DNA from: Rhodanobacter sp. 7MK24
GTDB lineage: Bacteria; Pseudomonadota; Gammaproteobacteria; Xanthomonadales; Rhodanobacteraceae
DNA length: 64,000 nt
Direction of reading: 5' to 3'
Assembly (NCBI RefSeq): GCF_014842995.1
Contig: NZ_JACYXL010000005.1
Location: 1-64,000, forward strand
Shown: piece after piece, positions 35,716 through 62,317 of the stretch
Layout of the letters: each line of letters begins with the position of its first letter
Numbering within the stretch: position 1 is the first letter of the stretch
Notes under the pieces: generated by a model
Databases searched by the model: none
The model's input: only the letters and a program-made list of their open reading frames with translations
What the model was told of the DNA's origin: nothing
Made by a program: the position numbers and the translations under genes

Positions 35716-37380
35716 TTACAACGCCTTTTCGTGCACTCCGCGCACCGCGCGCCCCGACGGATCGGCCATGCCGGCAAAGCTCGCATCCCATTCGATCGCA
35801 ACCGGCGAGGAGCACGCGATGGACTTGCCGCCCGGCACGGTGGCCGCGCTGGCTTCGCCCGGATAATGCTGTTCGAAGATTCGGCGGTAGAAGTACGCCT
35901 CCTTGGTGGCGGGAGTGTTGAACGGAAAGCGGGCCGCGGCGGCGGCGAATTCGCGGTCGCTCACCATCTGCTCGGCGTTCGCCTTCAGTCCGTCGATCCA
36001 GCCGTAGCCCACGCCGTCGCTGAACTGCTCCTTCTGGCGCCAGAGGATTTCCTTCGGCAAGGCACCGTCGAATGCGGCACGCAGCACATGCTTTTCGATC
36101 CTGCCGTTGCCGGCCATCTTGTAGGTGGCGTCCATGCCCATTGCCACGTCGATGAACTCGAGGTCGAGGAACGGCACGCGCGCCTCCACGCCCCAGGCCA
36201 TCATCGCCTTGTTCGCACGCAGGCAGTCGTAGCTGTGCAGTGCGTCGAGCTTGCGTACGGTTTCCTCGTGGAAAGCCTCCGCCGAGGGCGCCTTGTGGAA
36301 GTACAGGTAGCCGCCGAAGATCTCGTCCGAACCCTCGCCCGACAGCACCATCTTCACTCCCATCGCCTTGATGCGGCGAGCCAGCAGGTACATCGGCGTG
36401 GCGGCACGAATGGTGGTGACGTCGTAGGTCTCCAGATGCCGGATCACCTCTGGCAACGCGTCCAGCCCTTCCCAGAAGGTGTAGACGAAACCGTGGTGCA
36501 CCGTACCCAGCGCATCGGCAGCAATCTGCGCGGCGGCAAGATCGGGCGAACCTTCCAGCCCGATGGCGAAGGAATGCAGGCGCGGCCACCACGCCTCGCT
36601 CCTGTCGTTGTCTTCGATACGCTCGCGGGCGAACTTCGCGGCGCAGGCGGCCACCAGCGAGGAATCCAACCCGCCGGAAAGCAGTACGCCATAGGGCACG
36701 TCCGTCATCAGCTGGCGATGCACGGCCTGCTCGAACGCTTCGCGCAGCTCGGCCGCAGGCACTTCGTGACCGCGCGTGGCGGCATGGTCGCGCCAGCCCT
36801 TCTCGTAGTAGCGGCGCAACTCGCCGGTGGCGCTGTCGTACAGGTGGCCGGGCGGGAACGTGGCCACGTCGGCGCACACGCCGGACAGCGCCTTCATCTC
36901 CGAAGCCACGCAAAGGCGCCCCTGCTCGTCATGCCCCCAGTACAGAGGGCATACGCCGATGGGATCGCGCGCGATCAGGTAACGCTGCGCGGCGCCGTCC
37001 CACAGGGCAAACGCGAAGATGCCGTTGAGCTTGTGCAGGAAGTCCGCGCCGTATTCGCGGTAAAGCGCGTTGATGACTTCGCAATCCGATCCTGTGGTGA
37101 AGTCATAGCCGCTGGTATCGCGCAATTCGCGGTGGTTGTAGATCTCCCCGTTGACCGCCAGCGCCAGCGCGCCGTCGCGCGAGCGCAGCGGCTGCGCGCC
37201 GGAGGCCGGATCGACGATGGCGAGGCGCTCGTGCACCAGGATGACGCCAGCATCCACGAACACGCCGCTCCAGTCCGGGCCGCGATGGCGCTGGCGCTGC
37301 GACAGTTCCAGCGCCTGCCGGCGCAGGGCGGCTAGATCGTCGCCCGGTTGCAGGTCGAACATTCCGAAAATCGAACACAT
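35716..37380 (-). CDS. asnB: glutamine-hydrolysing asparagine synthetase B
   Basis: The product is 554 aa, the same length as E. coli AsnB. The start at 37380 gives Cys2 as the glutaminase nucleophile after Met removal (MCSIFGMFD); longer in-frame starts would bury it. A class-II glutamine amidotransferase domain (1-~200: RHRGPDWSGV, HERLAIVDP, NGEIYNH) is followed by the synthetase domain with the pyrophosphatase loop LLSGGLDSSLVA and SGEGSDEIFGGYLYF. It makes Asn from Asp, ATP and Gln. It is preceded by 164 bp of hairpin-rich leader, an intrinsic terminator and an Asn-rich leader frame, so expression is probably controlled by attenuation. GAGGA lies upstream of the ATG. Confidence 0.97.
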   Translation of the reverse strand: MCSIFGMFDLQPGDDLAALRRQALELSQRQRHRGPDWSGVFVDAGVILVHERLAIVDPASGAQPLRSRDGALALAVNGEIYNHRELRDTSGYDFTTGSDCEVINALYREYGADFLHKLNGIFAFALWDGAAQRYLIARDPIGVCPLYWGHDEQGRLCVASEMKALSGVCADVATFPPGHLYDSATGELRRYYEKGWRDHAATRGHEVPAAELREAFEQAVHRQLMTDVPYGVLLSGGLDSSLVAACAAKFARERIEDNDRSEAWWPRLHSFAIGLEGSPDLAAAQIAADALGTVHHGFVYTFWEGLDALPEVIRHLETYDVTTIRAATPMYLLARRIKAMGVKMVLSGEGSDEIFGGYLYFHKAPSAEAFHEETVRKLDALHSYDCLRANKAMMAWGVEARVPFLDLEFIDVAMGMDATYKMAGNGRIEKHVLRAAFDGALPKEILWRQKEQFSDGVGYGWIDGLKANAEQMVSDREFAAAAARFPFNTPATKEAYFYRRIFEQHYPGEASAATVPGGKSIACSSPVAIEWDASFAGMADPSGRAVRGVHEKAL

Positions 37381-37543: not shown

Positions 37544-37577
37544 AAAAAAACCAAGGCCCGCACTGGGCGGGCCTTGG
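37544..37577 (-). terminator. attenuator terminator of asnB
   Basis: Read on the minus strand: stem CCAAGGCCCGC / GCGGGCCTTGG (11 bp perfect), five-base loop, then seven T. It lies 27 bp after the stop of the Asn-rich leader frame and 164 bp before asnB. The 5' arm GGCCCGCC (37573-37566) is exactly complementary to GGCGGGCC (37621-37614), inside the end of the leader frame, so a competing antiterminator hairpin can form. Confidence 0.85.
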
Positions 37578-37604
37578 TCGCGTGTCTGGTGGTGTTGCTT
37601 TCAG

Positions 37605-37724
37605 CTACGCGCGGGCCCGCCAACGATTGGCGTTATTGTTCGCGCGATTATTGTTGGCGACCGCCACGATGCCCGGCGCGGCAAGCGCGGTGGCGTTCGG
37701 GAACATGGCGGACGTGAAGGTCAT
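37605..37724 (-). CDS. asnB leader peptide (Asn-rich attenuation peptide)
   Basis: A 39-codon frame from the ATG at 37724 (33 codons from the ATG at 37706) ends VANNNRANNNANRWRARA-stop. Seven Asn codons fall within ten codons at 37626-37655. A run of codons for the product amino acid just upstream of mutually exclusive hairpins is the hallmark of ribosome-mediated attenuation. A 1:2-type hairpin (GCCAA/TTGGC around TCG, 37631-37619) and the antiterminator segment (37621-37614) follow the Asn codons, and the stop codon is seven bases past that segment, so a ribosome at the stop would mask it and let the terminator form. Neither ATG has a strong Shine-Dalgarno sequence. Start choice is uncertain; the regulatory reading is inference. 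Confidence 0.75.
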   Translation of the reverse strand: MTFTSAMFPNATALAAPGIVAVANNNRANNNANRWRARA

Positions 37725-37730
37725 GGAACG

Positions 37731-37759
37731 ACTAGAACAGAAGGCCGGCGTTTGCGCAA
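37731..37759 (-). promoter_or_regulatory. candidate promoter of the asnB leader transcript
   Basis: TTGCGC (37759-37754), a 17-bp spacer and TCTAGT (37736-37731) give a weak sigma70-like match just upstream of the leader frame. Transcription would start near 37724, which leaves the 37706 ATG with a short untranslated leader. Similarity is modest and an upstream promoter is equally possible. Confidence 0.3.
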
Positions 37760-37844: not shown

Positions 37845-38216
37845 CTATTCCGCTGGTTCTGCGATCCAGCGCGTCGCTTCCTCAAGCCCGGCCAGCGCGA
37901 ACAGGCGAAAATCGGCGGGCACCAGGAAACGCGTCGCCTTGGTCGCCGTGCGCAGCCACCGCACGTCCGTCACCAGCGCTACGCGGTCCCAGCCGCTGAG
38001 GTGGCGCATGCCGAGCATGGCGTCGTCCCACATCGCGCCGGCGTCGAAGCCGGTGAAGTCGGGGTCCACCACGAACAGCATGCGCAGTTTGCGATTGAGC
38101 GCGAACACTGCTTCCACGTCCGGCACCAGCACCTGCTCGTAGTCCGCCGCGGTCACCTGGCCGTGCGCACGAAAGCCCACTGTACCGGGCGGCAATCCAT
38201 CGATCTGTTCAAGCAT
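37845..38216 (-). CDS. STAS/SEC14-like (SpoIIAA-like) domain protein
   Basis: The 123-aa protein has the pattern of the SpoIIAA-like family: PPGTVGFRAHGQVTAADYEQ, VLVPDVEAVFALNRKLRMLFVVDPDFTGFD split over two strands, then MWDDAMLGMRHLSGWDRVALVTD and ATRFLVPADFRLFALAGLEEATRWI. This single-domain alpha/beta family is often found as orphan genes and binds lipids or acts in signalling; no specific role is known. Its 3' end is 85 bp from the asnB leader -35 region and it is transcribed in the same direction. Confidence 0.8.
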   Translation of the reverse strand: MLEQIDGLPPGTVGFRAHGQVTAADYEQVLVPDVEAVFALNRKLRMLFVVDPDFTGFDAGAMWDDAMLGMRHLSGWDRVALVTDVRWLRTATKATRFLVPADFRLFALAGLEEATRWIAEPAE

Positions 38217-38567
38217 GAGGGTCTCCGTGGCGAGCAGGTGACCAGTGTGGGACGTATGTCGTGAACGCCGCGCGAGCTCAAAGTCTGTTCACGATCTCCA
38301 GGTGCCGCGCACGCAGAGCTCGTGTATGCGCAGGCGAAAGAAGGCCGAAGGCACGCAGGGGAATCCATGGATGGACTCGGCCTTGAGAAGCGAGGAGTAG
38401 ACGCCTGTCCAATATCGAATGATGAGACCAGCCTATGGGCAAACAAACTCGGCTCATTAGGCTCCCATCGAGTGGCCGCCACGCGGCGCACGGTTGCTAG
38501 ACAGGCGCTAGGCCACGCGCTGCCACTCGATGGCAACGCCCGGCACTTGGAGATCGCGAACAGACTC
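38217..38567. other. intergenic region between recJ and the STAS-domain gene
   Basis: About 350 bp with no credible reading frame. It lies between the recJ stop and the start of the STAS-domain gene on the same strand and should hold the latter's promoter. No terminator hairpin with a T tract or RNA gene was recognised. Confidence 0.5.
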
Positions 38568-40376
38568 TCAGGCCGGCTCGATGTGGCGCAGCAGCAAGCG
38601 CGGTGACTCGCGGCCCTGCCAGTCGTTGACCACGAGTTCGTAGGCGGCGCGCAGACGCAAGGGTGGAGAGACGCTGCCGACGTTGAACATCACCGCGTCG
38701 TGCATGCTGCCGTCGCGCGGATCGCGCAGTCCCAGCCGCCAGTGGCCCTCGCCCATCGGCTTCCAGTTCGCGCATTCGAACACGTTGTCGAACAGGGGCT
38801 CGGGAAAGGCCTGCCCCCAGGGACCGGCGCTGCGCAGCTGCAAGGCCAGCTGCAGCGACAGGCTGCCTGCAGGAAGTTCGCCATCGGTGTAAAGAGCGGC
38901 TTGCAGGCGTTCCGGCGCAATCAGCTCCCGTGCGGCCTCGTCGAAAGCGGCGGCGAAGCGCGGGAAATCCGCCGTGCGCAGGCTCAGGCCGGCCGCCATC
39001 GCATGGCCGCCGAAACGTTCGATCAGGCCGGGCTGGCGGGCATCGATCATCGCCAACGCATCGCGCAGGTGGAAACCGGGAATCGAACGCCCCGAGCCGC
39101 GAAGGTGTTCGGTGTCGGAGCGATTGATGCGCACTTCCTGTGCGGAAGAATCAAGAAGCGGCGATCCGTCGCCGCACTCTTCCAGGGTGGCCGGCGCAAA
39201 GGCAATCACCGGCCGGTGCAGGCGCTCCTTCAGCTTGGAGGCCACCAGGCCCACCACACCCGCGTGCCACGAGGGTTCGTACAGCGCCACGCCCACCGCG
39301 TCGATATCGCTCAGGCCGGCCGTCATCGCCTCGGCTTCGGCCACCATCGAAGCTTGCAGGTCGCGGCGCTCGCGGTTGATCGCGTCGAGCTCCCCGGCGT
39401 AGCGGCGTGCCTGTGCGATGTCGTCGGTGAGCAGGCATTCCACGCCCAGCTGCATGTCTTCCAGCCTGCCGGCGGCATTGAGACGTGGCCCCACCGCAAA
39501 GCCGAGATCGCTGGCGCACAGCGTGGCCGCACTGCGCTTGCCGCACTCGATGAGCGCAGCGATGCCGGCACAGGCATGGCCATTGCGGATGCGCCGCAAG
39601 CCCGCATCCACCAGTACGCGATTGTTGAAATCCAGCGGCACCAGGTCGGCCACGGTGCCGAGCGCCACCAAGTCGAGCAAGGTGGAGAGGTCGGGCCTGC
39701 CCTTTTCGGGAGTGCGGCCGCGGATGGGCTCTTCTCGACCTTGGCGATCCGGACGATCGCCCGGGTAAAGCCGCGCGCGCAGTGCGAGCAGGAGATAAAA
39801 CATCACGCCCACGCCGGCAAGCGCCTTGCTCGGGAAGCCGTCCCCGGCAAGGTTGGGATTCACCATCGCATCGCAACCCGGCAGCTGCTCGCCCGGCAGG
39901 TGGTGGTCGGTGACGATCACGCGCATGCCGAGTTCGCGCGCCCGCGCCACGCCGGCCACGCTGGCCACGCCGTTGTCCACAGTGACGATCAGTTGCGGCC
40001 GCGGTTGCAGCGAATCGACCAGCGCGGGCGTGAGCCCGTAACCGTGCACGAAGCGGTTGGGCACGGCATAGGCCACGCGCTTGGCGCCCAGCATGCGTAG
40101 GCCGCGCACGGCCACGGCGGTGCCGGTGGCGCCATCGCAGTCGTAGTCGCCGGCGATCAGGATGGCCCAATCGTCGCGGATGGCCTCGGCCAGCAGCTCG
40201 GTGGCGGCCTCCAGGCCGCCCAGCGACTGCGGCGGCAGCAGATGCTGCAGGCGATGCGCCACGCCTTCGGGTCGCAGCACGCCTCGCGCGGCATAGACCC
40301 GCTGCAACACCGGGTGCACGGCGGTGTCCCAGCCGGACGGTTCGCCCTGCGATTCGCGCCGCCGCAGTTCCAGCAC
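38568..40376 (-). CDS. recJ: single-stranded-DNA exonuclease RecJ
   Basis: The product is 602 aa from a GTG at 40376, two bases after the rpfE stop (a TTG at 40382 would overlap it). The DHH phosphoesterase core has motif I GDYDCDGATGTAV, motif II VDNGVAS and motif III VTDHHLPGE. The DHHA1 domain ends in GGHAMAAGLSLR, and the C-terminal OB domain follows. RecJ is a 5'-3' ssDNA exonuclease in mismatch repair and the RecF pathway. Tight coupling to rpfE is conserved in Xanthomonas. Confidence 0.95.
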   Translation of the reverse strand: MLELRRRESQGEPSGWDTAVHPVLQRVYAARGVLRPEGVAHRLQHLLPPQSLGGLEAATELLAEAIRDDWAILIAGDYDCDGATGTAVAVRGLRMLGAKRVAYAVPNRFVHGYGLTPALVDSLQPRPQLIVTVDNGVASVAGVARARELGMRVIVTDHHLPGEQLPGCDAMVNPNLAGDGFPSKALAGVGVMFYLLLALRARLYPGDRPDRQGREEPIRGRTPEKGRPDLSTLLDLVALGTVADLVPLDFNNRVLVDAGLRRIRNGHACAGIAALIECGKRSAATLCASDLGFAVGPRLNAAGRLEDMQLGVECLLTDDIAQARRYAGELDAINRERRDLQASMVAEAEAMTAGLSDIDAVGVALYEPSWHAGVVGLVASKLKERLHRPVIAFAPATLEECGDGSPLLDSSAQEVRINRSDTEHLRGSGRSIPGFHLRDALAMIDARQPGLIERFGGHAMAAGLSLRTADFPRFAAAFDEAARELIAPERLQAALYTDGELPAGSLSLQLALQLRSAGPWGQAFPEPLFDNVFECANWKPMGEGHWRLGLRDPRDGSMHDAVMFNVGSVSPPLRLRAAYELVVNDWQGRESPRLLLRHIEPA

Positions 40377-61965: not shown

Positions 61966-62317
<352 letters not shown>

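Follow-up and report, generated by a model that had tools for sequence, protein, structure and literature searches.

A conserved asparagine-codon leader and putative transcription attenuator upstream of asnB in Rhodanobacter and related bacteria

Organization of the asnB locus

The window (the whole analysed stretch of 64 kb from Rhodanobacter sp. 7MK24) carries on its minus strand a gene for asparagine synthase B, preceded by a short open reading frame with a run of asparagine (Asn) codons and by an intrinsic terminator. The main elements of the region, together with a tmRNA gene seen elsewhere in the window, are the following:

35716..37380, minus strand: asnB, glutamine-hydrolysing asparagine synthase B (NF006949, 867.1 bits against a cut-off of 499)
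37544..37578, minus strand: intrinsic terminator, 12-bp stem, loop CCAGT, seven T
37605..37724, minus strand: leader peptide frame, 39 codons and a stop, probably on a leaderless mRNA
37626..37655, minus strand: control region, seven Asn codons in ten
37845-38216, minus strand: SpoIIAA-like gene, upstream of the leader on the same strand
61966-62317, minus strand: tmRNA gene

The leader frame reads MTFTSAMFPNATALAAPGIVAVANNNRANNNANRWRARA, and its Asn block (minus strand, 37626-37655) consists of the codons AAC AAT AAT CGC GCG AAC AAT AAC GCC AAT. The initial annotation had described seven Asn codons in ten followed by a stop; the seven codons are present, but on reading the frame the stop, a TAG at 37605-37607, follows RWRARA and not RW, so that the antiterminator strand GGCGGGCC (see below) lies inside the leader frame. 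At least six Asn codons in 12 occur only once in the six frames of the 64-kb window, at the leader, and every such stretch in 80 related loci (586,794 bases) is likewise found at the leader position. Neither Pfam nor NCBIfam returned a family match for the leader peptide.

The product of the downstream gene makes asparagine, as expected for an attenuator read through Asn codons. In silico analysis of the Rhodanobacter genome (99.9% complete) revealed an asparaginyl-tRNA synthetase (AsnRS) above the cut-off; GatB was not found by a search that was positive in 12 of 14 controls, nor AsnA by one positive in two of 14. The charging of tRNA-Asn should therefore depend on free asparagine. No dedicated asparagine synthetase other than AsnB was identified in this genome, which also encodes two distant AsnB paralogues with 35-41% identity over parts.

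Other features of the region include a 34-nt inverted repeat (38277-38310 and 38538-38571, 85% complementary), whose arms enclose 227 nt in the interval that separates recJ from the SpoIIAA-like gene. Between 37381 and 37549 two palindrome-like pieces, GCGTGGATGGAGCCACGC and GCGCGGATGGATCCGCGC, were seen by eye, and a repeat search (minimum 14) listed no repeats in this segment.

Terminator, antiterminator and additional hairpins

The terminator is formed by CCAAGGCCCGC-CCAGT-GCGGGCCTTGG, a GC-rich and perfect hairpin with seven T at 37544-37550. It had been reported initially as a perfect stem of 11 bp with seven T, 27 bp further on, and it was found as such, 27 nt behind the leader stop, the stem reaching 12 bp when the outer A-T pair is counted. 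An intrinsic terminator thus stands between the gene and a leader with a run of codons for the amino acid that the gene product makes. The elements that may compete with the terminator or modulate it are:

37614..37621, minus strand: antiterminator 5' strand GGCGGGCC, within the leader frame
37566..37573, minus strand: shared strand GGCCCGCC, the antiterminator 3' strand and terminator 5' arm
37607..37611, minus strand: inner antiterminator strand CGCGT, with its partner ACGCG at 37579-37583
37619..37631, minus strand: possible protector hairpin GCCAA-TCG-TTGGC

The initial annotation had stated that the 5' arm of the terminator is exactly complementary to a segment past the Asn codons, and GGCGGGCC and GGCCCGCC do match exactly, the last C of GGCCCGCC being located in the terminator loop. 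The assignment of GGCGGGCC rests on pairing in 97.2% of cells within the window's own family, on covariation across families and on a swap test, and that of GGCCCGCC on pairing and covariation. The inner strands CGCGT and ACGCG are paired in 88.6% of cells of 44 sequences, with zero two-sided changes. It had also been suggested that a hairpin GCCAA/TTGGC can sequester the antiterminator segment; the sequence is present at 37619-37631, but its conservation is not clear, with 63.6% of cells paired and a slid version outscoring it in covariation.

A pause hairpin of the CCGCGC/GCGCGG type, located in the 5' half of the leader, was considered as a further candidate and rejected, being paired in only 65.8% of cells of 38 leaders from the window's family. 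Its covariation in these leaders (0.174, compared with 0.118 +/- 0.017 in shuffles, none of 500 reaching it) and its small gain over codon shuffles (16.1 against 14.4, top 5% in nine of 81 loci) are suggestive only.

Taken by itself, the complete leader RNA has an unexceptional folding energy (z -1.94, eight of 200 shuffles as low), so that the case for an attenuator rests on conservation.

Distribution of the leader

The alignment of asnB upstream regions from relatives, the check proposed with the initial annotation, revealed a conserved Asn run, terminator and antiterminator. In 75 of 80 relatives fetched by AsnB similarity, including Rhodanobacter, Dyella, Frateuria, Fulvimonas, Dokdonella and metagenome-assembled genomes, asnB is preceded by a leader containing three or more Asn codons in 12; of the five others, three end at a contig edge and two are Rhodococcus records. 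Among 60 genomes of the order, the leader occurs in 19 of 20 from the window's own family, Rhodanobacteraceae, in 22 of 23 from a second family (perhaps Xanthomonadaceae, which is a guess), in three of three from a third, and in one of 14 from other families. Part of these 60 genomes are the same records as the named loci, and identical elements were removed except in the swap test.

In total, a leader and a terminator precede asnB in 119 loci, 114 of them distinct, from three families of one order. This set combines 76 loci with 43 of the 46 loci L086-L131; L101 and L129 (AsnB 64% identical) have no leader, and L127, in which the leader is present and the stem mismatched, was dropped. Two hand-picked alignments were used, one of 44 of the 76 loci and one of 32 loci chosen for variety, and a covariance model was built on 44 sequences (the window and 43 relatives). 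In the 4.15-Mb Rhodanobacter genome the model gives one strong full-length match (E 1.2e-36), the next full-length match having an E-value of 1e-4; two weak full-length matches there each resemble the end of another reading frame followed by a terminator. Ten full-length matches in genomes outside those already read (E 1e-14 to 4e-8) were chosen and opened, and asnB lies directly downstream in all ten. The overall tally of 326/398 contains many terminator-only matches and is not counted as support. At the asnS locus of the same genome nothing leader-like was present among the frames listed (at most the first ten).

Inspection by eye of 41 asnB upstream regions from Gammaproteobacteria outside the order gave no Asn leader with a terminator (0/41). 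Of these regions, 40 were scanned, with an unrecognized asnB start approximated in seven, and L187 was scanned for frames only. The densest windows held six Asn codons in 12 (L220, beside the asnB start) and five (L191 and L225). Frames with three to five Asn codons are listed ahead of a terminator-like hairpin in L201, L208, L218 and L225, and may be the ends of upstream genes. Separately, L224 and L225 contain four consecutive Asn codons upstream of asnB with no terminator between.

Within the order, but outside the three families, a candidate leader was seen in one of 34 genomes (G082); the 34 comprise the 14 mentioned above and 20 further genomes of family f8, all without a leader, and one of the 34 has only 325 nt of upstream DNA. 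In G082 (L139 / L188, family f8) MFAIYNTINTTNNRLLRSAGSF and then a terminator stand before asnB, an arrangement seen in none of 22 other f8 genomes; it may reflect a remnant, an independent origin or chance, and the search returned no second genome of its genus.

Three records deserve separate mention. The two Rhodococcus loci (L083 and L084; NZ_CVQP01000004.1 and NZ_BCXA01000018.1) encode an AsnB 81-83% identical to that of the window and have no Asn leader, possibly reflecting horizontal transfer of the gene without the switch. The third, L040, is labelled Candidatus Eremiobacteraeota, carries a Dyella-like asnB with a leader and is probably mis-binned.

At the lower end of the range, 3-4 Asn codons in 12 occur in seven of 114 leaders. 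In four genomes of genus g4 (L176-L178, L185) the Asn run has shrunk to a few codons with the terminator and asnB kept, and these leaders may be eroding. As a separate observation, AAT makes up 349 of 800 Asn codons in leaders and 77 of 548 in asnB genes.

Covariation and exchange of pairing strands

Both the terminator and the antiterminator, for which a covariation test had been proposed with the initial annotation, covary across families. In the 32 sequences from three families the terminator scores 0.394 against 0.181 in shuffles, with two-sided changes in six of 11 pairs. In the 44 aligned sequences of the window's family its core GGCCCGC/GCGGGCC is invariant and the lower stem covaries. 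The antiterminator scores 0.216 in the 32 sequences; shuffles give 0.109 +/- 0.014, none of 500 reaching the observed value, and slid pairings do not exceed 0.092. In all, 79.7% of cells are paired, and four of ten pairs show two-sided changes (30 cells against 15.5 in shuffles). The shuffle controls ignore relatedness, the sliding controls do not. Among 73 distinct strand/arm combinations 87.1% of cells are paired, compared with 83.5 +/- 0.75% (maximum 86.0%) in shuffles, and the same antiterminator pair changes from G-C in the window's family to T-A in the second family. Within the window's family alone there are zero two-sided antiterminator changes, because the strands hardly vary there.

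In many of the genomes read from the second family the terminator is CCCGCATC/GATGCGGG; the leader tail ends there in ...RPMRVCD-like residues instead of ...RWRARA, and thereby carries GATGCGGG. A swap test was performed on all 119 loci, near-duplicates included. Tail and terminator arm of the same locus pair with a mean of -20.8 kcal/mol in the window's family and -21.3 kcal/mol in the second; the values with other loci of the same family are -21.1 and -19.4 kcal/mol, respectively. Crossed combinations pair less strongly, at -13.9 kcal/mol for tails of the window's family with terminators of the second and -16.4 kcal/mol for the reverse, and shuffled tails reach -12.3 kcal/mol. The own-locus pairing is in the best 5% of shuffles for 100 of the 119 loci.

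Promoter and start of the leader

Directly before the leader a promoter has been identified, composed of two hexamers:

37754..37759, minus strand: -35 hexamer TTGCGC, 17 nt before the -10 hexamer
37731..37736, minus strand: -10 hexamer TCTAGT, 6 nt before the leader ATG

In 55 of 113 loci a strict -10-like hexamer ends 6-7 nt short of the leader ATG, compared with 1.5% when the upstream DNA is shuffled; by family, these are 51 of 89, three of 21 and one of three loci of the first, second and third family, respectively. For the choice at each locus the -10 was sought 5-9 nt from an ATG picked jointly with it; a wider profile, run separately over 0-29 nt, peaks at 6 and 7. TTGC or TTGA hexamers separated by 17-18 nt from the -10 selected were counted 103 times over the 114 distinct loci. 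A Shine-Dalgarno-like 4-mer precedes the leader ATG in 4/114 loci, compared with 109/113 for asnB by the same pattern. The promoter appears to place the transcript start at the leader ATG, clearly in the window's family and more weakly in the second, and its proximity to the ATG, together with the mostly absent Shine-Dalgarno sequence, indicates that the leader peptide is probably translated from a leaderless mRNA.

The distance from the terminator stem to asnB ranges from 29 to 385 nt (113 loci). In 45 of these loci it is only 29-45 nt, 42 of them with a Shine-Dalgarno-like 4-mer, which leaves little room for a separate asnB promoter; for this reason asnB is probably reached by read-through of the terminator.

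Ribosome position and folding of stalled states

A ribosome with the codon in its A site at least 13 nt upstream of a strand is taken, from its footprint, to leave that strand uncovered. The 114 distinct loci contain 753 Asn codons no more than 60 nt from the antiterminator strand; 696 of these are at least 13 nt upstream of it, and they number three or more in every locus (114/114). Between the end of the strand and the leader stop there is a median of 7 nt (range 3-16), so that a ribosome at the stop would cover the strand.

The antiterminator is exclusive with the terminator and would be left free by a stalled ribosome; folding supports this more weakly than the geometry. In simulated stall states, arm and leader form at least eight pairs for 78% of the loci; the corresponding figures are 36% for shuffles and 58% and 36% for the cross-family chimeras. 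At least five pairs are formed in 114/114 loci but also in 69% of shuffles, which discriminates poorly. Once the RNA has its full length, folding favours the terminator form (median -40.9, compared with -29.3), and antitermination must therefore be kinetic, as it is in the classical attenuators.

Comparison with known systems

Like the trp, his, leu, thr, ilv and phe attenuators, the element combines a leader frame rich in codons for the product with a biosynthetic gene, and an intrinsic terminator with an antiterminator that shares the terminator 5' arm. In contrast to them, it concerns asparagine and asnB, and the antiterminator strand is located within the leader frame. The T-box riboswitches of asparagine genes in Firmicutes also sense the charging of tRNA-Asn; here, however, the translating ribosome would be the sensor.

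No Rfam family reaches its gathering score at the element. Trp_leader (22.8 against 41 bits), Thr_leader (17 against 55) and Leu_leader (15.8 against 50) remain below it, no T-box model is among the matches listed, and His_leader, sought as a positive example of the class, gave no match at E 0.001 in the Rhodanobacter genome.

Leaderless leaders have been described from RNA data, in the sections available, for trpL of Sinorhizobium meliloti (PMC7298713) and for leuL, trpL, ilvL, metL and thrL of Streptomyces lividans (PMC8079986). The asnB leader resembles these in transcription from the leader start codon, which here is deduced from sequence; in the available text they differ in concerning other amino acids and genes.

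No earlier asparagine attenuator is among the open-access matches listed, a scope outside which the likeliest comparative surveys lie. By term search, the available parts of PMC8079986 and PMC7298713 contain neither asparagine nor asn, those of PMC2965389, PMC4833913, PMC1262725 and PMC1183508 do not mention asparagine, and PMC5009743 (first part) and the available text of PMC10989985 mention it in other contexts only. In the available parts of the Xanthomonas small RNA papers PMC7694677, PMC3039613 and PMC2996969 the same kind of search gave neither asnB nor asparagine; in that of PMC3771888, AsnB2 appears solely as a gene tested for sX13 dependence.

Alternative explanations

The Asn leader could regulate by another route, namely Rho, decay of the RNA or coupling of its translation to that of asnB, and candidate Cys leaders of Mycobacterium with no obvious terminators, described in the part of PMC1262725 available, offer a precedent. 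This is nevertheless improbable, as neither the perfect, covarying intrinsic terminator and its U-tract nor the covarying antiterminator that excludes it would be accounted for, and the variable distance of 29-385 nt to asnB and the Shine-Dalgarno-like 4-mer of asnB itself in 109/113 loci also speak against it.

Still less credit is given to a main role in trans for the leader RNA or peptide after its release, comparable to that of rnTrpL and peTrpL of S. meliloti according to the available sections of PMC7298713. A leaderless leader and a terminated small RNA would be expected in that case, and such action could coexist with attenuation. The leaders, however, vary greatly in sequence outside the Asn block and are 20-45 aa long among distinct loci (L015, for which the script mispicked a far-upstream ATG and gave 153 aa, is excluded), and a different terminator is accompanied by a different tail, suggesting a function in cis.

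The least credible alternative takes the hairpin as nothing more than the end of the SpoIIAA-like transcript, that is, as the terminator of the gene upstream, with a fortuitous Asn frame and an asnB promoter further down. This gene does lie upstream in 53 of the 67 loci with full 3 kb of upstream DNA. Against this reading, a conserved promoter separates the gene from the leader, 13 of the 66 loci that bear a leader lack it as a neighbour (L084, the remaining one of the 67, is without a leader), the antiterminator shows covariation, and in 45 of 113 loci there is scarcely space for a further promoter.

Proposed mechanism and significance

The element very probably controls asnB by ribosome-mediated transcription attenuation, with charged tRNA-Asn as the signal sensed. 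The logic of ribosome-mediated attenuation, for asparagine, had been proposed in the initial annotation, and it is supported, the protector hairpin excepted, by the conservation of leader and terminator and by covariation across families. The anatomy, conservation, covariation and geometry of the attenuator can be read in the compared sequences; translation of the leader, stalling, termination and the response to asparagine would then act in the following sequential order. Transcription would start at the leader ATG or a few bases from it. With ample Asn-tRNA, the ribosome would pass the Asn block and reach the stop, covering GGCGGGCC just upstream of it; the terminator would form, and transcription would end before asnB. 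With scarce Asn-tRNA, the ribosome would stall in the Asn block, where most Asn codons are far enough upstream to leave GGCGGGCC free. The free strand would pair with the terminator 5' arm once that is made, thereby blocking the terminator and allowing transcription of asnB.

This is likely the first ribosome-mediated asparagine attenuator: an old, leaderless asnL-asnB switch, present in at least three families of one order with differing terminators, through which the charging state of tRNA-Asn would govern the one dedicated asparagine synthetase identified. The natural pairs of terminator and antiterminator would provide ready-made compensatory variants for studying the evolution of attenuators. 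In some lineages the leader is short (20-23 codons), and such leaders may serve as compact test cases for the coupling of ribosome and polymerase. If the reading as an attenuator is true, asparagine joins the amino acids sensed by translating ribosomes, and asnB gains a named regulator in a large bacterial group comprising Rhodanobacter, Dyella and their relatives.
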